A stretch of 11,368 bases of DNA from a bacterium (lineage in GTDB: Bacteria > SZUA-182 > DTGQ01): positions 1-11,368 of the forward strand of contig JAILZY010000105.1 of assembly GCA_023512255.1 (NCBI GenBank). Reading direction: 5' to 3'. A program made the translations under genes and the position numbers. Below the pieces are notes generated by a model. It saw only the letters and a program-made list of their open reading frames with translations, was not told where the DNA came from and searched no databases. Numbering within the stretch: position 1 is the first letter of the stretch; each line of letters opens with the position of its first letter. Of this stretch, positions 426 through 10,722 are shown in pieces.

Positions 426-3400
426 TTACCACATCCACCACTTTTCCTGATCGCCGAATAGAAGCCGCTTGATAGCGGAAATAAAACACATCCCTCCACC
501 ACCTGAGGAATCACCAGGGGTATGTTTGCCCGGATCCAGGGTGGTTACCTTGACCGTATTCGAGAATGAGCTGCGCCCCTGCCGACTGCTCACGGCACAG
601 ACCCGATACTGATAGGTTGATTTTGCCTGAAGCCCAGTATCAATATAACAGGTTGTGTCAGCAGACAGCCTAGCCAGGGGATAGAAGTCGCTCCCATCCT
701 GATCCTTTCGCTGAACCTCAAATCCTGCTTCCGAAAGGGCATTATCCCTCCAGGATAACTCGACCTTAGTGTCAGATAAGGCTCTGGCCATAAGGTTGGT
801 CGGCGAGACATGGAAGATGGCTAGACGGCCACTGTGCACAAGCAGGCCAGAAACCGCGAGCATATGCTCCGTATCTCCCTCAAGTCGTAGGTTATCCAGG
901 CCATTGGCTCGCCAGAGCGAATTTGCATCTTGATACCAGACCTCAAGATCATCCAGTATGGGAATCTTGCCGCTTCCGCCAGGGGCATAGGCCAGCCAGG
1001 CCCTGTTCGGGTCATTATCGGGCCAGCCGCCTCCTCGGTTTGGATCGTAGTAGAAGCTGAGCAGGCGTTCCATATCTAGCTGGATGTAGGCCGCGGGAGG
1101 ATTATCCAGATTCAGCTTTGCCCAGGAGGCCGGGGTATCCTGCCCAGCTCCTCCCAAGGGCTCCAGAATCTGAAAGTCATAGATCAAGCTGACCATCTTC
1201 TCCCCACCCTGCTGCGGTCTGGTTTCCAAGGCCGGTGCTCGATCAAGGCAAAGGCGCAAGGGCTTGGCATCCTTGTCTTCCTCAACTTCAGTGGCTTTAT
1301 CATGATATAGGCCACATGGAGAAATATCGATCCGGGAGTAATCAAATATACGCCTTAGAGAGTCTTCGGGGTCAATGAAGCCAACTGGGCCAAGTCGTCC
1401 ACCCTCAACCAGGGTAGTGCTAATTTCAGTTCGGCTAGTCAGAAATTGGGCGGCTGTACTCGCTTGGGCCTGTGGATGGACAATGAACTGATAGCGGAAT
1501 TCCTGCGGCGGGCAAGAGGCGTATACTACCCTGCCATCAAGAACGATGCGGCCCAAAGCGGGAGCCTGCGGCTGGCTATAATAGTGGTCAAACCTAGCCT
1601 CATAGTGCCCTCGAAGTATATGGTATTTATCCTGATCATCCTCGATCCAGGCAGCTCGATCATCCATTCTGCCGATATTGATCAGAGCAGAGTCAGTGCC
1701 ATTAGGACTGACAGACAACTCAATCAGCGGAGGATCTGCTTCTTGGAAGAAAGCCTCATCTTGCGGATAGAAGAAAAGAGCGGTTATAAGCTGAGGATGG
1801 TTGGGATCAGTGCGGTCCCATTTTTCCACCGAGGTAATGGTAAGGGCAGGTGGCAGATTGGGCCAGCTTGGATTGGCAGATACTTTCAGCTTGAGCTTTT
1901 CATGCGAGTTAGGATCAAGCTGCGGCTGATTGGCATCTAGCCTGAATCCCTGGCCGTTGTTGGTTTCAACCACTGGCAGAAATTGACGGTTAGGATCAAA
2001 GACAGCTAACTTAAAGGTACCCGTTGGAAGGTCAAATTGATACCTGCCGTTTGGATCGGTTTGAGTGGTGTAGGGAGGCAGCCCGCCGGACATCGCTGTG
2101 GCCACAACCATAACCCTATGGCCAGTAGGCAAAGCACGCTCTGTGTCTCCTGAAACCTTCTCAACTACCTTGCCAGCTATAGATCCCCCCTTTATAGGCA
2201 ACTGAATATTATACACTATGGTCTGCCCGGCCGAGAGAGTGATCCGATCAGAGAATCTCTTCTGATACCCTTTGGCTGAAACCACCAGCCGATATTGGCC
2301 AGGGGAGAGCCCCACGAGGCTAAACTTTCCTTCTGCATCCGATTGGCTGGATTTAGCCGGCAAGCCCTGAACCTGAACCAGGGCCTGGTTAACAGGCTCT
2401 CCATCCTTCTGGCTGGTGATTTTTCCCTCAATAGCCCCAAGCCCAATGACTGTAACCAGCACCTTGCGGCTGCTCCGATTGCTGTTTAGTGAGGTATTCG
2501 AGCAGCTATCCTGAGCCGTAACCGTAACCCAATGGGTGCCGACATCTTTCGGATCTGCAGTAGCGGAGCTTTGGCTCATCCAGCCAGAATAGCTGAAGGT
2601 AATGCTGTCGCCATCAGGGTCAGTAGCCTTTGGCCGGAGGGTTAAGGTCTGGCCAACTCGGACCACCTGCGGCGGGATAAACTCAAGTTGAGGCGGGTTA
2701 TTGTCCGGAGTATTGATTGGGTCGCAGTCCTCATCCTGGCCGTTGCAGTGCACTTCCTGAGCTCCAGGATGGAAGTCAGCGCTTTGATCATTGCAATCCA
2801 AGGCATTGTCTACATAGCCTGAATGCTCCTCACAGATGGTGAATGACTTGATATTAGCCGGATCGCCCCAGCCATCGCCATCTAAGTCGCGATAGTAGCT
2901 CTGCTTCGGGCTATTATCAATCAGACCGTCGCAGTTATTGTCCAGCCTGTCACACTGCTCTGGGGCACCAGGATAAGTAGATGGGTCATTGTCATTGCAA
3001 TCCTTCCCATTGATCACATAGCCGGATGGGTTTTTACCAAGACAAAAATTTCCCCAACTCTCAGGATTCCCGTATCCATCACCGTCAAGGTCTTCATAAT
3101 ATTTTCTTCCATCTATAGGATCATCATCAATTAGGCCATTGCCGTTATTATCCTTGCCGTCACAGATCTCAGGTGCCCCTGGATAGATATTGGGGTTGGT
3201 ATCATCGATATCAAAAGCCCCCTTCAGGGCAAAAGCCACATAACCAGCCGGAGCGCTACACTGCTCTTTCATTATTTCCGGATTACCATAGCCATCACCA
3301 TCGGCATCTCGATAGTAGCGGTTAGCAACTTTGACGGTACGATCCACAGTCGGATTTCCGACAGCTGAGGCTCCCTGATCCCTAAACTCCATCTTGTATT

Positions 3401-6400
3401 TTAATATCCCATCACCTCGGCAGGAGAGAGTCTTCTCAAGGGTAAAGATCACCCCATCGGGGTTTGAATAGTCAGGGTTAGCCTCTTTCGGGCTCATCTG
3501 AAAATCCTCGCCCAGACCGTAGCGGCCATCGTCATTGATATCGATCCAGCAGATGGCCACCCTACCCTTGGAAGGATCGTTAGAATCTTTAAGCTTGGGA
3601 GGATCCCCATCCGCATCCCGATATTTCACCTGAAATTCATACTTCCAGGTGTCTGGATCAATGAGCTGAGCGCCGGGGGAGTTGGCATCTGGCCAGCTCA
3701 ATTCAGGAGCCCGGTTGATCAAAAATTTCCCTCCCGCAACCGATGGTCCACTGGCTATATTTTTCCCATCCGTCGCCCAGAAGCGATAGCCGAAGACTCC
3801 ATCTCCGCCCTCACGGCCAAAGCGCCAAGTTAATGCGTAGATTCGGCCCGAGGTAATCGAGCTGGCCGAGACAGGGTGAAGCAAATATCTTTCCATAACC
3901 TGATTTATCCTATCCCTATTGCGCTCGATCAGAAGCTCTACCTTCGGCAGCGGATCCCCCTCTTGGTAATCCGTATCCTTATACAGTACCTTGAAGCTGA
4001 AATTGGCATCAGACAGGGCAGAGTTAGGATCGACTCCATTCTGGCGGAAGCCATCCTCAGCCACCCATTGCAGGATCGGCACAGCTCCCGCCTGAGTTAC
4101 CGAAAGGGTTAGTTTGGCACTTTTGACTGTACTGAGGCTATCGGAAAACACAAATTGGAAGCAGATCGGAGCCTCAGTCGCATAAAGGATCGGTATTGAC
4201 CGCTCATAGAGAACCCCATCCTTGAACTCCTTCTGCGAATCCGCTCGGTACAAGGGTTTGTACTCATTCTGCTCATCAATTCCATTGCCATTCTCATCTA
4301 TCCAGACATCGTATCTGATAGGAGTATCGTTATCTAGATCGCGATAGACTACCTTGAAAGTAAAACTGCTCCCACCAGGCCCTTGCTGTGGGCTTACCTG
4401 CGGGGATTCAAGCACAGGACTATGATTCAGAGTCAGCAGCCGATCATGGGTCGGTGCACCCTTGGCCAAATTTTTGCCATCATGGAAATAGAAGCGATAG
4501 CGAAGCGAGTTCTGGCCTGCGCTTGGAAGGAAGAGGTCTAGGGTATAGACTTTCCCATCCTTGCAATTTTTGTCTTGCGAGCTCTCCTGAGCCATCCAGT
4601 ATCTCTCATCAAGATCGTAGACACCATTATCATTCATGTCTATCCATAACTGATAGCTTTCAGGGAAATCGCCGTCCAGATCGGTATAAATTACCTGAAA
4701 GGTAAAAAGATCCCCTACCGTACCCAATTGTGGTATGAGACCATAGGTTAGCTCTGGAACGTTCCCGACTCTCTCTACCTTAAGAGTCGATGCGGATGGA
4801 GTATTGGTATCGCCAAAGTAAAACTGATACTCAAGCTCATTGACTCCGCTGTTGCCGAAATCAATATTAGGATCAAAGAAAATCTGCTTGGGTGGTATCT
4901 GTACCTGGTATACCTTGCCCTCACGGTAATTTTTCTGATCGGCATCTTTCTCTTCAAGAGGCCATTTTTCGCTCTCCTGCCGCAGATGATCATGGTTTAT
5001 ATCAAGCCATAGCCTTCCCGCAACGCTCGGTGGCTCATCATCCTCATCCTGGTAAGTAACCTGAAACAGGAAAGCACTTCCGCCTTTGCCGGGATTTGGG
5101 CTCGCCTGGCCGCCCGTCAGCACCGGGGGCCGATCAGGAGTAATGCGCAGGCAACGTTTAGCTGCCGGTGCGCCAGCGGCTTCAGTCCGGCCATTTTTAA
5201 ACACAAACCAATAGGAGAAACAGTCGGTCAAAGACCCAGCGGTCTGCGATGAAAACGAGAGCGTCCTCTGATACACCTTGCCTTCGGCATAACTTGCGCC
5301 GCTCACTTCCTGAAGACCGAATCTTTCATCTTCTTCGATGTAATTGTTCTGATCAAGGTCGATCCAAAGCTGCGCCAGGGTGGGAGAAACATCCCTCGCG
5401 TCCTTATATTTGACCGCGAAGGTAAACTGGGTTTTGGTGGAGCCAGAGTCAGGATCAACTCCATCCTCCTGAAAACCACCACTGCCAAGCCAAGAGAGTT
5501 CGGGCTTTGGCCAGACCTTGAGCAGGTGATCTTCGGCGGGCTCTCCACTAGCCGCACTGTAGCAGTTATTGAAGACAAAGCGATAGGAGATATTTTGGGG
5601 GCTATCGGCCTCCAGCACCTGATAGTAGGTGTAGATGCCGGAGCTGTAAGTATTTGGATCTAGTCTTTCGCTTGCTTCATACTCGCCGTTATGATTCAAA
5701 TCGATCCAAAGCTGATGTTTTCTGTAAGAGCAAGTCTGTGATTCTGCCGGATCGAAGTATTTCACCTGGAAAACGAATTTTTCACCACTATATCCTTGAT
5801 CAGACTTTACGCCTTTGGGATAGCCTGGCGTCCAGTCCAAAGTGGGTGGGGGAAGAGTTGTCTCTACAGCTAGGGTATGAATCTCATAAGGCTCACCTAA
5901 AACCCTCCCCTGAATGGGATGAGTAAACAGAAACTGATATTGCAGCTTTCCATCTCCGGCGTAGGAAATCCACACCTCCCGCTTGTACTCCTTCCCATCG
6001 ACATAATTATTATCATTACGATCCACTGGATCCATGGAAAATTTCTCGTTCTCTTCTATGAGGCCGTTATCATTGAGATCCAGCCAGACCTTGCTCTCAG
6101 TCGGCGGCTGATTATCGGCGCTAAAATATCGTACCCAGAAGGTGGCTGTCTGGCCGAGAGTGGCTTTGTCAGGATTTGGCATCCACTCAAGACGAGCTAG
6201 ATTAAAGTAAATAGACTGAGCCGCGACCTCATCGCCTGTGGTGGCTTTATCGTCAACCGCGGCATTATTCCCATCATGGAAGTAGAACCGGTAATTGAGC
6301 TTTCCACTCTCAAGGGGAGAAACATGGTAGATAGAGCGGCTATAGGTAGCACTATAGGTGCCGCCCTCCTTCTTTTCCTCCACCTTGTCCATCAGGAACC

Positions 6401-9101
6401 GCTCGCTCCCGCTGTAGAGGCCATCTCCGTTAAGGTCAACCCAAACCTCATATCCCGGATCAACCCAAGGGGAACGACCCTGTCCCGGCGGATCCCCGTC
6501 GGGGTCAGTATATTTGATCCTGAAGGTAAGGGTATACCCTTGGCCATCGGGGCTGGTATTTACCTCAACCCCGTTGCTCTTAAACTCTCCCTCACCAGCC
6601 CAAGTCAAAGTGGGTGGGATACCATACTGCTGAAGAGAGAGTGATTGGCCAGCAGGAGAGCGCCCCGCTGGGCAGGCTGAGGTATCGGCCTGGGTGGCGT
6701 AGCTATCTTGGAAATCAAACCTTAGGGGAACGCTTTGGTATCCCCCATACAGCAGGAAGACCTCGGCCTTATAAACCCGGCCAAGAGCATAATCAGTGGT
6801 GTCGTTTGGATCAGCCAGATGGAGGGGATAATTTTCCCCATTCTGTACCTGGCCATCTTTGTTTAGGTCGATCCAAATCTGGTGCACAGAAGGAGGATCC
6901 TTATCTTGATCCTGATAGCGCACATTGAAGGTAAAAAAATTCTCATCAGACCGCTTCTCATACCCACTATCATCTGCCCAGCAGAGGGCAGGAGCTCGGT
7001 TTACCCTAAGGGTCTGATCCAAGGTTGGGGCACCAGTAGCATAACTTACAGAATCATAGGCAAAAAAGCGGTAGCTCAAACTTCCATCACCAGCATAATT
7101 CAATACCTTGCTAACCCTGTATACGTCGCTGGTTCCTACTCTGCTCATGACAAGCTTTTCTTCTGAATTATCATCGTAGGTGCCGCTGTCATCGACATCG
7201 ATCCACAGCTCGACGTGAGCATAGGAAGGAGGGTATTGAGAAATGAACCGCACCTGAAAAACCCGCTCTGTGCCCGGCGTAGCCACGTTAGGCTCTACCC
7301 CATCGCTGGTGTAGCCAGAGGCTGTGTCCCATTGCAGTTGCGGCACCCCGCCGATCGGGCTGGTAATGGTCAGAGTGCGATCCCTGGCCGGGCTTCCAGC
7401 AGCTATGTTGCCACTGCTGGCCACAAAGTAGAATCGGTATCGGTGGAGATGGTCCACTGAGTTCGGATGGTATCGCAGGGGCAAATTAAAGGTATAAATG
7501 CATCCATCCTTGTAGCTTTGGCTGTTAGTGGTCATATCATGGTTTTTTTCATCCTCTTCATAGAAACCATTATCATTTTCATCCACCCAGACCTGACAGA
7601 TGGAAGGCGGCATATTCAGACTGTTTTTGTACTTCACCCGAAACTCGAAATTGCTTCCCCCAGAGGCAGAATCAGGATCTACCCCATCAGCGGTAAACCC
7701 CGACACCCCGGCCCATTCCAGAGCAGCTTCAGTATTGATAAAAGAATTTAGGTAGGTGCTTTTTTCGCCTGTCTCAAGCCAGATGGCGTAAAGGTCTCCC
7801 TTGCCACTGCTGTCACAGCAGAGCCTTGAGTAGCGGGCTTGAGCATTATTTCCATTATTCCTCAGATTTGGAACGGCGGTTGTTGATAGCCATGTAGCCG
7901 CAAAATCCAGTGAATAATTCACAAAGGCATTCAGCCCAAATCCTGGCCGCGACTGACTCCAGCTTACAGCCACAAACCCCTGATCGTTGCAACTTAGGCT
8001 TGGCTGATCGCAAGGATAGTCGTTATAGCTATTATCAATTCTTTTACAGGCTGTTTGCCAGCTATTGCCGCTATCAGAGGAAAAATTGCCAAAAACATGG
8101 TCTTTAGAATACTCGCGCTGGTCAAGCCAGACTGCATAGATATGTCCTTGCGAATCACCAGCCAGACAAAGACTGCGCACCGGATAAGAAACTTTGTTCA
8201 GCCAAATCGGACTTCCCGACTTGGTCAGATTTTTGAAATAGGCCTCTTTCCCATTCTGAATCCAGGCCAGACAGGGGCTGTTGCTCTTCTTTTCCCAGAG
8301 AGCCTGAAGCTCTGAGACCGAGGCGCTGGCCACCAGTTGAATACCCTTAGATTGGAAGCTTTGGCCCCAATTGGTGGAATAATTATAGTATACCCCACCG
8401 GAGCTATCGCTCCTCTGGTCGATCCAGGCCACGTACACGGAGCTGCCTGAGCAAATAAGCCTGGGCTGGATGCACTGGGCTGACTGGCTCGGCAGGTCAG
8501 AGTCTAGGCGGCGCTCCTCGGTCAGCCACTTTTGGGTTTGGCTCGAATAATAATTGTAATATACCCCACCCGGGGAGCTTGGACGGACCCAGACCACAAA
8601 GATATCCCCACGCTGATTGCAGGCGATCTGAGGATCACTTACCCCGGCTATAGCCATGCTGAGCCTGGTGTCCTGACTTTGCCAGGTTTGGCCATTATCG
8701 TTAGATTGATTAAGGTAAATTGTGCCTCCTCCATGCCGACTATCTACCCAGACCGCATAGAGATTGCCGGCACTATCGTAGCAAATCTGAAAATTCGCTG
8801 CTGATGATACCTTCGCCTCCTGACTGTGAACAACTACGGCCTCTGGAAACCAGTTCAGGCTGCGATCGTAAGAAGTGCTCACCACGATCCGATTTCCACT
8901 CACCATCTCCTCAAGCCAAGCTATAGTAAGACTACCCTGCTGATTGGTGATGATCTTAGGTTGAATTTCCTTTACCTGTCCAGTGCTGACTTTCTGTTCG
9001 TTCGTAAAGGCTACTGACGCGGAGCGGGCTAGCGTAGCGTTCCCCAAAATTAGGGCTAATACTAGCAGCAGCCAGTAAGTTGGAAATCTCCTTCTTTTCA
9101 T
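426..9101 (-). CDS. Giant secreted multidomain protein: beta-propeller, twelve calcium-loop modules, MopE repeats, FN3
   Basis: The gene encodes 2,891 aa, roughly 320 kDa. The ATG at 9101 is chosen because GGGAGG lies 10 nt upstream and the protein then begins MKRRRFPTYW followed by a hydrophobic stretch, a clear signal peptide. The in-frame TTG six codons earlier overlaps that ribosome site and is unlikely. Domains in order: BNR/sialidase-like propeller (35-457); twelve tandem modules (461-1926); three MopE-type metal-binding repeats (1928-2131); Ig/cadherin-like (2136-2220); two carboxypeptidase-regulatory-like folds (2222-2400); an unassigned part (2405-2762); FN3 (2766-2855); glycine-rich tail with a CFI motif (2864-2891). 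No catalytic centre is recognisable, and the propeller lacks an obvious sialidase active-site set. Probable role, inferred: a calcium-dependent extracellular or surface structural or adhesive protein. The frame is intact along its whole length. No convincing sigma-70 promoter was found upstream. Confidence 0.93.
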   Translation of the reverse strand: MKRRRFPTYWLLLVLALILGNATLARSASVAFTNEQKVSTGQVKEIQPKIITNQQGSLTIAWLEEMVSGNRIVVSTSYDRSLNWFPEAVVVHSQEAKVSSAANFQICYDSAGNLYAVWVDSRHGGGTIYLNQSNDNGQTWQSQDTRLSMAIAGVSDPQIACNQRGDIFVVWVRPSSPGGVYYNYYSSQTQKWLTEERRLDSDLPSQSAQCIQPRLICSGSSVYVAWIDQRSDSSGGVYYNYSTNWGQSFQSKGIQLVASASVSELQALWEKKSNSPCLAWIQNGKEAYFKNLTKSGSPIWLNKVSYPVRSLCLAGDSQGHIYAVWLDQREYSKDHVFGNFSSDSGNSWQTACKRIDNSYNDYPCDQPSLSCNDQGFVAVSWSQSRPGFGLNAFVNYSLDFAATWLSTTAVPNLRNNGNNAQARYSRLCCDSSGKGDLYAIWLETGEKSTYLNSFINTEAALEWAGVSGFTADGVDPDSASGGSNFEFRVKYKNSLNMPPSICQVWVDENDNGFYEEDEKNHDMTTNSQSYKDGCIYTFNLPLRYHPNSVDHLHRYRFYFVASSGNIAAGSPARDRTLTITSPIGGVPQLQWDTASGYTSDGVEPNVATPGTERVFQVRFISQYPPSYAHVELWIDVDDSGTYDDNSEEKLVMSRVGTSDVYRVSKVLNYAGDGSLSYRFFAYDSVSYATGAPTLDQTLRVNRAPALCWADDSGYEKRSDENFFTFNVRYQDQDKDPPSVHQIWIDLNKDGQVQNGENYPLHLADPNDTTDYALGRVYKAEVFLLYGGYQSVPLRFDFQDSYATQADTSACPAGRSPAGQSLSLQQYGIPPTLTWAGEGEFKSNGVEVNTSPDGQGYTLTFRIKYTDPDGDPPGQGRSPWVDPGYEVWVDLNGDGLYSGSERFLMDKVEEKKEGGTYSATYSRSIYHVSPLESGKLNYRFYFHDGNNAAVDDKATTGDEVAAQSIYFNLARLEWMPNPDKATLGQTATFWVRYFSADNQPPTESKVWLDLNDNGLIEENEKFSMDPVDRNDNNYVDGKEYKREVWISYAGDGKLQYQFLFTHPIQGRVLGEPYEIHTLAVETTLPPPTLDWTPGYPKGVKSDQGYSGEKFVFQVKYFDPAESQTCSYRKHQLWIDLNHNGEYEASERLDPNTYSSGIYTYYQVLEADSPQNISYRFVFNNCYSAASGEPAEDHLLKVWPKPELSWLGSGGFQEDGVDPDSGSTKTQFTFAVKYKDARDVSPTLAQLWIDLDQNNYIEEDERFGLQEVSGASYAEGKVYQRTLSFSSQTAGSLTDCFSYWFVFKNGRTEAAGAPAAKRCLRITPDRPPVLTGGQASPNPGKGGSAFLFQVTYQDEDDEPPSVAGRLWLDINHDHLRQESEKWPLEEKDADQKNYREGKVYQVQIPPKQIFFDPNIDFGNSGVNELEYQFYFGDTNTPSASTLKVERVGNVPELTYGLIPQLGTVGDLFTFQVIYTDLDGDFPESYQLWIDMNDNGVYDLDERYWMAQESSQDKNCKDGKVYTLDLFLPSAGQNSLRYRFYFHDGKNLAKGAPTHDRLLTLNHSPVLESPQVSPQQGPGGSSFTFKVVYRDLDNDTPIRYDVWIDENGNGIDEQNEYKPLYRADSQKEFKDGVLYERSIPILYATEAPICFQFVFSDSLSTVKSAKLTLSVTQAGAVPILQWVAEDGFRQNGVDPNSALSDANFSFKVLYKDTDYQEGDPLPKVELLIERNRDRINQVMERYLLHPVSASSITSGRIYALTWRFGREGGDGVFGYRFWATDGKNIASGPSVAGGKFLINRAPELSWPDANSPGAQLIDPDTWKYEFQVKYRDADGDPPKLKDSNDPSKGRVAICWIDINDDGRYGLGEDFQMSPKEANPDYSNPDGVIFTLEKTLSCRGDGILKYKMEFRDQGASAVGNPTVDRTVKVANRYYRDADGDGYGNPEIMKEQCSAPAGYVAFALKGAFDIDDTNPNIYPGAPEICDGKDNNGNGLIDDDPIDGRKYYEDLDGDGYGNPESWGNFCLGKNPSGYVINGKDCNDNDPSTYPGAPEQCDRLDNNCDGLIDNSPKQSYYRDLDGDGWGDPANIKSFTICEEHSGYVDNALDCNDQSADFHPGAQEVHCNGQDEDCDPINTPDNNPPQLEFIPPQVVRVGQTLTLRPKATDPDGDSITFSYSGWMSQSSATADPKDVGTHWVTVTAQDSCSNTSLNSNRSSRKVLVTVIGLGAIEGKITSQKDGEPVNQALVQVQGLPAKSSQSDAEGKFSLVGLSPGQYRLVVSAKGYQKRFSDRITLSAGQTIVYNIQLPIKGGSIAGKVVEKVSGDTERALPTGHRVMVVATAMSGGLPPYTTQTDPNGRYQFDLPTGTFKLAVFDPNRQFLPVVETNNGQGFRLDANQPQLDPNSHEKLKLKVSANPSWPNLPPALTITSVEKWDRTDPNHPQLITALFFYPQDEAFFQEADPPLIELSVSPNGTDSALINIGRMDDRAAWIEDDQDKYHILRGHYEARFDHYYSQPQAPALGRIVLDGRVVYASCPPQEFRYQFIVHPQAQASTAAQFLTSRTEISTTLVEGGRLGPVGFIDPEDSLRRIFDYSRIDISPCGLYHDKATEVEEDKDAKPLRLCLDRAPALETRPQQGGEKMVSLIYDFQILEPLGGAGQDTPASWAKLNLDNPPAAYIQLDMERLLSFYYDPNRGGGWPDNDPNRAWLAYAPGGSGKIPILDDLEVWYQDANSLWRANGLDNLRLEGDTEHMLAVSGLLVHSGRLAIFHVSPTNLMARALSDTKVELSWRDNALSEAGFEVQRKDQDGSDFYPLARLSADTTCYIDTGLQAKSTYQYRVCAVSSRQGRSSFSNTVKVTTLDPGKHTPGDSSGGGGMCFISAIKRLLFGDQEKWWMW
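429..512 (-). other. Glycine-rich CFI-type C-terminal tail of the giant protein
   Basis: The last 28 residues hold SSGGGGMCFISAIKRLLFG and end in a Trp-rich EKWWMW. A run of glycines followed by Cys-Phe-Ile resembles the glycine-rich CFIATAAYG endings found on many secreted proteins of Deltaproteobacteria and relatives. Here Met is inserted before Cys, ISAI replaces IATA, and the end is short, so it may be a degenerate form. A role in sorting or anchoring is inferred. Confidence 0.5.
537..806 (-). other. Fibronectin type III domain of the giant protein
   Basis: Residues 2766-2855 show the FN3 pattern: SPTNLMARALSDTKVELSW, GFEVQRKD, TCYIDTGLQAKSTYQYRVCA and a closing SNTVKVTT. It is a normal length for the family and acts as a spacer or binding module next to the C-terminal tail. 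Confidence 0.85.
816..1889 (-). other. Unassigned region of the giant protein (about 358 residues)
   Basis: Residues 2405-2762 match no family I recognise. Visible are TITSVEKWDRTDPNHP (2421-2436), an aromatic-rich part around FRYQFIVHP (2535-2543), a loop with FYYDPNRGGGWPDNDPNR (2683-2700) and a beta-rich end leading into FN3. There are no transmembrane segments. It is long enough for one or two folded domains and is the least explained part of the protein. Confidence 0.6.
1902..2438 (-). other. Two carboxypeptidase-regulatory-like beta-sandwich domains
   Basis: Residues 2222-2302 follow the family pattern: GAIEGKITS start, VQVQG strand, the D-A-E-G-K-F-S-L turn, L-x-P-G-Q-Y-R-L-V-V-S and A-K-G-Y. 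Residues 2306-2400 repeat it more loosely (SIAGKVVE, TDPNGRYQFDLPTGTFKLAV). This fold is usually a structural or ligand-binding module in exported proteins, without enzyme activity. Confidence 0.75.
2442..2696 (-). other. Ig/cadherin-like domain of the giant protein
   Basis: Residues 2136-2220 read PPQLEFIPPQVVRVGQTL, then ATDPDGDSITFSY, then DVGTHWVTVTAQDSC and a final VLVTVIG strand. The DPDGD turn and closing V-x-V-T-A-x-D motif are typical of cadherin-like or PKD-like beta-sandwiches in secreted bacterial proteins. Confidence 0.7.
2709..3320 (-). repeat. Three tandem MopE-type metal-binding repeats
   Basis: Residues 1928-1997, 2000-2066 and 2068-2131 each contain YYxDxDGDGYGNP, then DCNDxD, YPGAPEQC and DNNCDGLID, the signature of the putative metal-binding repeat named after Methylococcus MopE. 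Repeats 2 and 3 have all four cysteines. Repeat 1 keeps the first and third but has FDIDD in place of DCNDND and NNGNG in place of NNCDG. The Asp-rich loops should bind calcium or another divalent ion. Such repeats are common in large secreted proteins of Myxococcota and Deltaproteobacteria. Confidence 0.85.
3324..7721 (-). repeat. Array of twelve tandem beta-rich modules with EF-hand-like calcium loops
   Basis: Residues 461-1926 hold twelve head-to-tail modules starting near 461, 586, 703, 829, 969, 1085, 1199, 1325, 1448, 1561, 1674 and 1798. Each runs: P-x-L-x-W start; F-x-F-x-V-x-Y strand; acidic turn (D-x-D-x-D-x-P-P); LWIDLN-type strand; a 12-residue D-x-[ND]-x-[ND]-G-x5-E loop; DGKVY strand; Y-R-F-x-F strand; a DGxNxAxGxP turn; and a closing D-R-x-L-x-V strand. 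The loop matches EF-hand spacing at 507, 745, 889, 1008, 1134, 1248, 1367, 1488, 1602 and 1854. Module 2 (635) has one extra residue and module 11 (1726) is degenerate. The pattern recalls bacterial Ig-like repeats and the WIDxNGDG part of GEVED-type domains, but I cannot assign a family. The modules are well diverged at DNA level, so the array is old. Confidence 0.85.
7731..8999 (-). repeat. BNR/sialidase-like beta-propeller region (eight blade motifs)
   Basis: Residues 35-457 carry eight copies of a pattern [LIV]-Y-A-[VI]-W-[LIV]-D-x-R followed about 20 residues later by an Asp-box-like turn such as SNDNGQTW or SSDSGNSW. The anchoring tryptophans are at 62, 118, 171, 226, 280, 325, 381 and 441, a period near 54 residues. 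This is typical of BNR-repeat propellers, which in secreted bacterial proteins bind glycans or proteins. Blades 5 and 8 are the most divergent. Whether the fold closes with seven or eight blades cannot be told from sequence alone. Glycosidase activity is not supported. Confidence 0.8.
9018..9101 (-). other. Sec signal peptide coding segment of the giant protein
   Basis: Residues 1-28 show the three-part layout of a signal peptide: basic start (MKRRR), hydrophobic core (WLLLVLALILG, 10-20) and a small-residue region (NATLARSAS, 21-29). Cleavage probably falls after residue 25 or 28; neither site is perfect. No lipobox cysteine is present, so this is not a lipoprotein signal. Confidence 0.85.
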
Positions 9102-9926: not shown

Positions 9927-9978
9927 AGGCTCCATTTTTATTGAATTGCCCTAGGCTCCATTTTTATTGAGTTGCAAG
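9927..9978. repeat. 26-bp tandem duplication across the stop of the zinc-ribbon gene
   Basis: A 23-base core starting AGGCTCCATTTTTATTGA occurs at 9927-9949 and 9953-9975 with a single difference (A at 9945, G at 9971). The period is 26 bp. The copy at 9953-9975 contains the last three codons and the TAA of the neighbouring gene (9964-9966). Each copy carries its own in-phase TAA relative to its start, so removing either copy would leave the gene's end almost unchanged. Confidence 0.8.
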
Positions 9979-10722
9979 AAGAGAGCCACACCAGGGACAA
10001 TACTTCCACGAGCCGCTCTCCTGCTGCCTGCATTTTGGACAAAATTTAGCTGGAACAAGAGAGCTCAAAGGCAATATCCATTGAAAAACCTGATCTTTTA
10101 CCTGAGGAATACCCTTTATCCTGATAGAAAATTTCCCCTCCCCTGTGGCCTCATACAGCTTCTCTTTCCCCTTGCTCTCCGAGGGGAAAAGGATAAAATT
10201 CATGTTATCTCCCATCTGCCCCAGCATACTTGAAAAAAGCGGCTTAATCATGACAATCGCATTCCGAGTGCCTGGCTCAAGGTCTTCATCATCAAGAGGT
10301 TTATAGACATGACCGGCCCTGTCTTCGAGAAAAATATGCTGCTGAAGCACTGATTTAGAGGTGAAGACCGCAAATCCAGATGAGGCAATCCGACCATGAA
10401 CGACGATAAAGGTTACATAAGGGGCAAAAAGCTCAAGCACTTCCCTGATTCGGGCCTCAGTAACATCAGCCCGCTTCAGGGTAAGCTGCCACCACTCTTT
10501 GGGTATCCACTGAATAATGGTGATTACTCCAGGATCAGTAGACATTTTCTGGCATTCATTCATTAACGCGACCAGATCTTGTTTCTCCGCCATATTCTGT
10601 TTCTCCGCCGCTTGGCAGATCGAAGGAGGCTTGATCAGGCTCAAGATACCTATAGACCAGGCTACATAAGACAAGGCTACAGACAAGGCTGCTGCTGCCA
10701 GCCAGCAAGATCGATTTTTCAT
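9964..10722 (-). CDS. Exported or membrane-anchored protein with C-terminal zinc ribbon, unknown function
   Basis: The product is 252 aa. The ATG at 10722 is supported by GAGGAG 9 nt upstream. Residues 1-30 are basic then hydrophobic (WLAAAALSVALSYVAW), a signal peptide or single N-terminal anchor; possible cleavage is after Ala38. There is no proper lipobox at Cys36. The middle (about 50-215) carries WIPKEWW, FAPYVTFIVVHGRI, a MIKPLF-x8-MGDNMNF segment and a FQWILPLSSLVP strand before the end. The last 25 residues hold CPKC (228-231) and CPWC (242-245), a four-cysteine zinc ribbon. I think similar small proteins exist in environmental bacteria as hypothetical proteins, but no function is known to me. 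Two in-frame duplications are visible: ALSV/ALSY (12-19) and AEKQNM/AEKQDL (39-50). It reads towards the giant gene, with 862 bp between them. Confidence 0.85.
   Translation of the reverse strand: MKNRSCWLAAAALSVALSYVAWSIGILSLIKPPSICQAAEKQNMAEKQDLVALMNECQKMSTDPGVITIIQWIPKEWWQLTLKRADVTEARIREVLELFAPYVTFIVVHGRIASSGFAVFTSKSVLQQHIFLEDRAGHVYKPLDDEDLEPGTRNAIVMIKPLFSSMLGQMGDNMNFILFPSESKGKEKLYEATGEGKFSIRIKGIPQVKDQVFQWILPLSSLVPAKFCPKCRQQESGSWKYCPWCGSLLATQ
10580..10609 (-). repeat. In-frame 18-bp duplication inside the zinc-ribbon gene
   Basis: TGTTTCTCCGCC (plus strand) is found at 10580-10591 and 10598-10609, period 18 bp, giving the doubled peptide AEKQNM-AEKQDL at residues 39-50, just after the hydrophobic segment. 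It keeps the frame and lengthens the linker after the predicted signal or anchor. Confidence 0.75.
10669..10690 (-). repeat. In-frame 12-bp duplication in the signal/anchor segment
   Basis: AGACAAGGCT occurs at 10669-10678 and 10681-10690, a 12-bp period, producing ALSV-ALSY at residues 12-19 of the hydrophobic core. It lengthens the core by four residues. Confidence 0.65.

Follow-up and report, generated by a model that had tools for sequence, protein, structure and literature searches.

A twelve-module Ig-like array with an EF-hand-type loop on one hairpin: a candidate calcium-stabilised stalk in a predicted surface or secreted bacterial protein

The window, by which we mean the whole 11,368-nucleotide stretch of DNA analysed here, carries a long reverse-strand gene whose product combines a propeller-like head, a twelve-module array and a series of smaller domains (Table 1). 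An ortholog in a genome of the same genus (G001) has 2845 codons, begins with MKRRRFPTYWLLL, exactly as this gene does, and follows the identical domain order with 57-74% identity by domain. The head resembles sialidase-type propellers in Pfam (BNR_2, E 4.2e-6, 26.7 bits, under the cut-off of 31.4; BNR_4, E 4.7e-4), whilst the three MopE-type motifs that follow the array suggest that further metal ions are probably bound beyond the modules. A stretch of about 350 residues (aa 2413-2760, window 822-1865, reverse strand) has no family match in Pfam and is conserved in the ortholog at 58% identity. Upstream of this gene, at 9964-10722 on the reverse strand, lies a gene for a protein of 252 aa that starts with a signal-like segment and ends in a zinc-ribbon-like CxxC...CxxC; it has a 73% identical counterpart at the equivalent place in the same-genus genome (L030:3309-3968). 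Scans for tRNA genes and Rfam families gave no match.

Table 1 Layout of the gene and its product, with positions given on the window
Feature	Position	Strand	Basis
Complete gene (ATG at 9101, stop 426-428), 2891 aa	426..9101	-	Open frame
Putative signal peptide, aa 1-28, boundary approximate	9018..9101	-	MKRRRFPTYW-LLLVLALILGNATLARSA; basic N-end and hydrophobic core
N-terminal BNR/sialidase-type beta-propeller-like domain, aa 29-458	7728..9017	-	Pfam BNR_2, BNR_4
Twelve-module array, aa 459-1927	3321-7727	-	Alignment
Ig-like module M1	7350..7727	-	Alignment
M1 loop DENDNGFYEEDE	7548..7583	-	Sequence
Ig-like module M2	6993..7349	-	Alignment
M2 loop DVDDSGTYDDNSE, 13 residues, one extra	7161..7199	-	Sequence; 12 residues in ortholog
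Ig-like module M3	6618..6992	-	Alignment
M3 loop DLNKDGQVQNGE	6834..6869	-	Sequence
Ig-like module M4	6201..6617	-	Alignment
M4 loop DLNGDGLYSGSE	6402..6437	-	Sequence
Ig-like module M5	5853..6200	-	Alignment
M5 loop DLNDNGLIEENE	6045..6080	-	Sequence
Ig-like module M6	5508..5852	-	Alignment
M6 loop DLNHNGEYEASE	5667..5702	-	Sequence
Ig-like module M7	5133..5507	-	Alignment
M7 loop DLDQNNYIEEDE, Gly6 to Asn	5325..5360	-	Sequence
Ig-like module M8	4758..5132	-	Alignment
M8 loop DINHDHLRQESE, Gly6 to His	4968..5003	-	Sequence
Ig-like module M9	4428..4757	-	Predicted structure (AlphaFold2), pLDDT 94.0, pTM 0.85
M9 loop DMNDNGVYDLDE	4605..4640	-	Sequence and predicted structure
Ig-like module M10	4083..4427	-	Predicted in tandem with M9 (AlphaFold2), pLDDT 92.0, pTM 0.72; matches 6fhj 817-921
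M10 loop DENGNGIDEQNE	4263..4298	-	Sequence and predicted structure
Ig-like module M11	3711..4082	-	Alignment
M11 altered loop ERNRDRINQVME, Asp1 to Glu, Gly6 to Arg	3891..3926	-	Sequence; candidate ligands identical in ortholog
Ig-like module M12	3321..3710	-	Alignment
M12 loop DINDDGRYGLGE	3507..3542	-	Sequence
Three MopE-type putative metal-binding motifs (DxDGDGYG...), aa 1928-2130	2712..3320	-	Pfam PF11617, E 2.7e-23, 3 stretches
PKD-like domain, aa 2131-2220	2442..2711	-	Pfam PKD, E 4e-4, under cut-off
Two carboxypeptidase-regulatory-like domains, aa 2221-2412	1866..2441	-	Pfam PF13620, E 5.9e-22, 2 stretches
Fibronectin type III domain (fn3), aa 2761-2858	528..821	-	Pfam PF00041, E 2.9e-7
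C-terminal tail GGGGMCFISAIKRLLFGDQEKWWMW, likely sorting or anchoring tail	429..527	-	Tail conserved in ortholog; CF[IVT] in paralogs

Beyond the fn3 domain the protein ends in a tail (GGGGMCFISAIKRLLFG...) that has counterparts elsewhere in the lineage: nearly all paralogous module proteins have CF[IVT] near the C-terminus, to which some add a hydrophobic stretch and arginines downstream, and most paralogous and related proteins likewise combine a propeller-like head with the modules and a tail of the CF[IVT] type. Among the module proteins of the window's order (L031, L032, L034, L035, L037, L038, L039, L040) the motif often comes after Gly (GGCFIRS, GCFISS, GCFTDS, CFVEH). The motif resembles a tail for sorting or anchoring; since neither a hydrophobic stretch nor a transmembrane segment lies downstream of the CFI tail in the window protein, the anchoring of this protein is uncertain.

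An earlier note on this DNA had described a twelve-module array at 3324-7721 with an EF-hand-like loop at the same place in nearly every module, and alignment of the modules bore this out with slightly wider limits (Table 1). The loop D-x-[DN]-x-[DNS]-x6-E sits at one alignment position in 11 of the 12 modules, between a [LV]W[ILV]D strand and a DGKVY strand, a placement that the earlier note had recognised and that both the alignment and the predicted structure reproduce. The strict motif, D-x-[DN]-x-[DN]-G-x5-E, occurs eight times in the array against a mean of 0.01 and a maximum of 2 in 2000 shuffles; the relaxed motif, which drops Gly6, occurs 11 times against a mean of 0.22 and a maximum of 3 (2000 shuffles), one of these 11 matches lying off the aligned position (DRNDNNYVDGKE, aa 1027, in M5). 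Pairwise identity among the twelve modules is only about 19-39%, so the shared loop is no trivial effect of recent duplication. The extra residue noticed before in the M2 loop is present, and as the M2 loop of the ortholog has 12 residues and its M9 loop 13, a slip of one residue ahead of the Glu is tolerated. M11, which had been singled out as the only clearly broken module, is better described as altered than as clearly dead: its loop follows the pattern E-R-N-R-D-R-x5-E, retaining E-x-N-x-D and Glu12, and all four candidate ligands recur in the ortholog (ERNTDRINTVME).

Comparison with the ortholog across the twelve module pairs supports selective conservation of the four candidate ligand positions. 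At positions 1, 3, 5 and 12 the two proteins agree in 44 of 48 comparisons, the four changes being two of N to D, one of S to N and one of D to N, and an oxygen-bearing side chain is kept in 48/48. By comparison, 44/84 (52%) of the other loop positions and 817/1281 (64%) of the positions in the rest of the modules are identical (p about 1e-6 and about 1e-5, respectively, both to be read as guides, given that positions are partly dependent and that the loop was aligned by hand in two gapped pairs). The excess remains (p about 2e-6, a guide in the same sense) when ligand positions are set against D, N, E and S residues elsewhere in the modules, of which 184/312 are identical. Across 60 modules of the order, a sample gathered by a loop-containing profile and hence biased toward loop-bearing modules, Asp1 is found in 58, Asp/Asn3 in 60, Asp/Asn/Ser5 in 60 and the terminal Glu in 55, and position 8 is hydrophobic in 54. 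A hydrophobic position 8 is a feature of canonical EF loops. Examined as a Dx[DN]xDG-type loop, the sequence has both the motif and a later acidic ligand, and these are conserved. In a tree built without the loop columns each module pairs with its own ortholog; the array was therefore complete, and in the same order, before the two species split, with no homogenisation since then.

An AlphaFold2 model of M9, built with the other eleven modules as the alignment, is all-beta, with seven strands of three or more residues (confidence values in Table 1). The loop follows the third strand (residues 34-40), and a single helical turn at residues 49-51 (HHH) ends at Glu12. M9's local pattern is repeated for M10 in the tandem M9-M10 model (HHH 163-165, Glu12 at 165), placing Glu12 within a one-turn helix directly after the loop in both modelled modules. 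We take the predicted module to be an Ig-like beta-sandwich, with Ig-like strand order and the loop after strand C, in keeping with the earlier proposal that the loop is part of the sandwich itself, as opposed to a helical EF-hand or dockerin. Those two folds were rejected on the all-beta model, in which the only helix is the single turn after the loop, and on the lack of any such Pfam match in any module. Few residues separate the last strand of M9 from the first of M10 in the tandem model, and the module junctions are short and mostly proline-containing. If the strands run in the standard Ig order, the C-C' loop is expected on the pole in contact with the following module.

As the earlier note had suspected, no family in Pfam or NCBIfam covers the whole module, and the module family and the position of its loop are without an entry in the curated databases searched. 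Pfam scans reaching E 1 with the whole protein and E 5 with single modules turned up neither cadherin nor RTX (hemolysin-type calcium) families, and membership of either was ruled out on that basis. Pfam likewise gave no SdrD_B (PF17210) match in the modules, the one sub-threshold match (aa 2337-2397) falling outside the array. The best Pfam match is GEVED (PF20009; whole protein E 1.2e-18, 68 bits, 3 stretches), a domain defined in CshA-type fibrillar adhesins and likewise found in adhesin stalks, which raises the possibility that the modules are diverged GEVED domains and the array a known family. GEVED domains of another genome do have a WIDxNxDGxxxxxxE loop at the corresponding place, with what seems to be the same strand order around it. 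The match, however, reaches 5 of the 12 modules, none of them at the curated cut-off (best single module 21.2 bits; cut-off 24.4 bits per domain), and the GEVEDY motif is absent from the modules. A comparison of module and GEVED profiles aligned only 20 loop columns at 73% probability, which fell to 0.3% once the twelve loop residues were deleted (reversed control 1.4-1.8%), and outside the loop no similarity is detectable. With the resemblance sub-cut-off and confined to the loop, the modules are not GEVED by these tests, and we consider that assignment unlikely; a single well-described family for the array, which the earlier note had given as the outcome that would overturn its view, was not recovered. 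The paper defining GEVED makes no mention of calcium or metal. The GEVED domains of one sampled genome (G053, L062-L091) conserve the WIDxNxDGxxxxxxE loop, which looks like a calcium site, and we suggest the same of this loop in fibrillar adhesins.

A closer relative was found among solved structures. The beta-module of the Paenibacillus xanthanase PspXan9 (6fhj, residues 817-921) is the best PDB profile match (E 0.011) and the best Foldseek match (E 4e-5), and in VIA it superposes on M9 with Z 11.8 and on M10 with Z 14.7 (rmsd 1.5 Å, 102 aligned), the next rows for M10 scoring about 10. It shares with the modules the fold, 24% identity and the VID...SDGRVY landmarks; it differs in having a short turn in place of the EF-hand-type loop (VVID-GVIRSM where the modules have LWIDMNDNGVYDLDERYWM) and in being part of an enzyme, not of a twelve-fold array. 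Both profile and whole-domain structure comparison thus place the array modules with the 6fhj beta-module, and we favour treating them as one unnamed Ig-like domain family. Other VIA and Foldseek matches (PPAD, sulfite oxidase, ICAM, CBM21) were set aside as relatives, their scores being typical of any Ig-like sandwich.

The xanthanase relationship also invites a reading in which the modules bind carbohydrate, the array being a multivalent polysaccharide binder whose calcium loop shapes or forms the sugar site. The matched 6fhj domain adjoins or overlaps CBM84: the forward primer of the published CBM84 construct of PspXan9 encodes SDGRVYT, which lies inside the matched domain, so the published boundary may be misplaced, cutting through the domain. 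That construct, however, includes the final module too, which may do the binding, and although CBM21 and starch-binding domains also appear, lower-scoring, in the Foldseek and VIA results, their Z of 8-9 is of the size that any Ig-like sandwich reaches. Conservation in the modules falls on core positions and the loop, with no conserved surface aromatics identified, and we regard sugar binding by the array as improbable.

The module profile found members in 31 of 386 sampled genomes, including all five genomes of the window's order; those outside the order belong to many unrelated families. Nearly all modules within the order are loop-bearing, and in other lineages the place is taken either by the loop or by a short turn (YIDGSPYTM or ILKGGVHISGSPFTL, for example); these loop-less cousins have no Pfam family either. 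A tree built without the loop columns contains at least six changes of loop state, of which well-supported branches force only one, and we do not claim repeated gain of the loop because one origin is still compatible with the tree. No close relatives were found in the plasmid collection, the viral contigs or the genome contigs, the last giving one weak match, to a Bacteroidetes MAG.

Taken together, our preferred explanation, at a probability of roughly 0.6 and including the shared family with the 6fhj module, is a surface or secreted protein whose stalk is stabilised by one calcium per module, with a function like that of the SdrD/SdrG B domains and a different build. The array would be an extended stalk of twelve copies of the uncatalogued Ig-like domain, in which, in the window's lineage, the hairpin after strand C would hold a 12-13-residue EF-hand-type loop with predicted ligands Asp1, Asp/Asn3, Asp/Asn5, the carbonyl of residue 7 and Glu12. 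One calcium ion per module, as the motif suggests, would pin this hairpin and the neighbouring pole of the domain. As the linkers are very short and mostly contain proline, the array should, once loaded with calcium, form a rather stiff rod that resists proteases, is perhaps 50 nm in length and carries the N-terminal propeller away from a presumed cell-proximal C-terminal part.

Some features stand against this calcium-stalk interpretation, Gly6 being missing in M7, M8 and M11 and the Glu slipped in M2. Loops of this type, moreover, need not control stiffness, since the fold of an SdrD B domain survives calcium depletion. They could bind calcium only so that each module folds and is stable once outside the cell, as when the protein has been secreted into a medium rich in calcium, and leave the stiffness between modules alone. 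Each module has its one loop inside it, and the motif takes no ligands from a neighbour; in SiiE of Salmonella it is the type I interface sites that give rigidity, whilst type II sites, within one domain, mainly tune conformation, and the N2N3 region of SdrD keeps its shape without calcium. An effect at the junction is favoured, on the contrary, by the shortness of the junctions, most of which contain proline, and by the probable location of the C-C' loop on the pole toward the following module; we hold the fold-only role to be possible, if the less probable one, beside the calcium-stabilised stalk.

A broader form of the calcium-stabilised stalk is offered only tentatively, as somewhat speculative. 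In an unnamed Ig-like family widespread among bacteria, the C-C' hairpin may serve as a plug-in site that accepts a complete EF-hand loop. All sampled genomes of the order, and scattered other lineages, have this loop; cousins have a plain turn in its place, and the GEVED domain, otherwise unalike, has a similar loop. The loop might then act as a calcium clamp at the junctions, by which a twelve-module arm would pass from flexible to rigid with calcium.

The earlier note had likened the array to cadherins and RTX adhesins, as a calcium-stiffened chain with a loop of another kind. The position of the loop, between C and C', does set it apart; the kind of device is not new, as EF-hand-like calcium loops in Ig-like stalk modules are already known from the B domains of staphylococcal SdrD and SdrG, and a loop-less homolog of the module, 6fhj, has been solved. 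Like the array, the SdrD/SdrG B domains form a stalk of Ig-like modules in tandem, every one with its EF-hand-like calcium loop; those of SdrD are joined by linkers of one or two residues with proline, and in SdrG B1 mechanical strength is governed by calcium. In SdrD, however, the fold is of the CnaB type, strands A and B flank the loop and each domain takes three ions, whereas the array modules have the loop between C and C' and one evident site. SiiE has a long chain of Ig-like BIg domains made rigid by calcium, its type I sites being built from Asp residues of two neighbouring domains, in contrast to the continuous EF-hand-type loop of the array. Section 5 part 1 and the table of new folds in Rigden and Galperin describe Dx[DN]xDG calcium loops in varied folds, among which the Ig-like hairpin is not listed; the array loop has the identical linear motif and a later acidic ligand, at position 12 as in EF-hands. 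An uncatalogued Ig-like family would thus join the short list of calcium-stabilised stalk modules, with its EF-hand-type loop on the C-C' hairpin in place of the A-B position of the staphylococcal B domains, and the same domain with a plain turn, in 6fhj and in other lineages, provides a natural comparison, with and without the loop, for what one calcium loop does to the stability of such an Ig-like domain.
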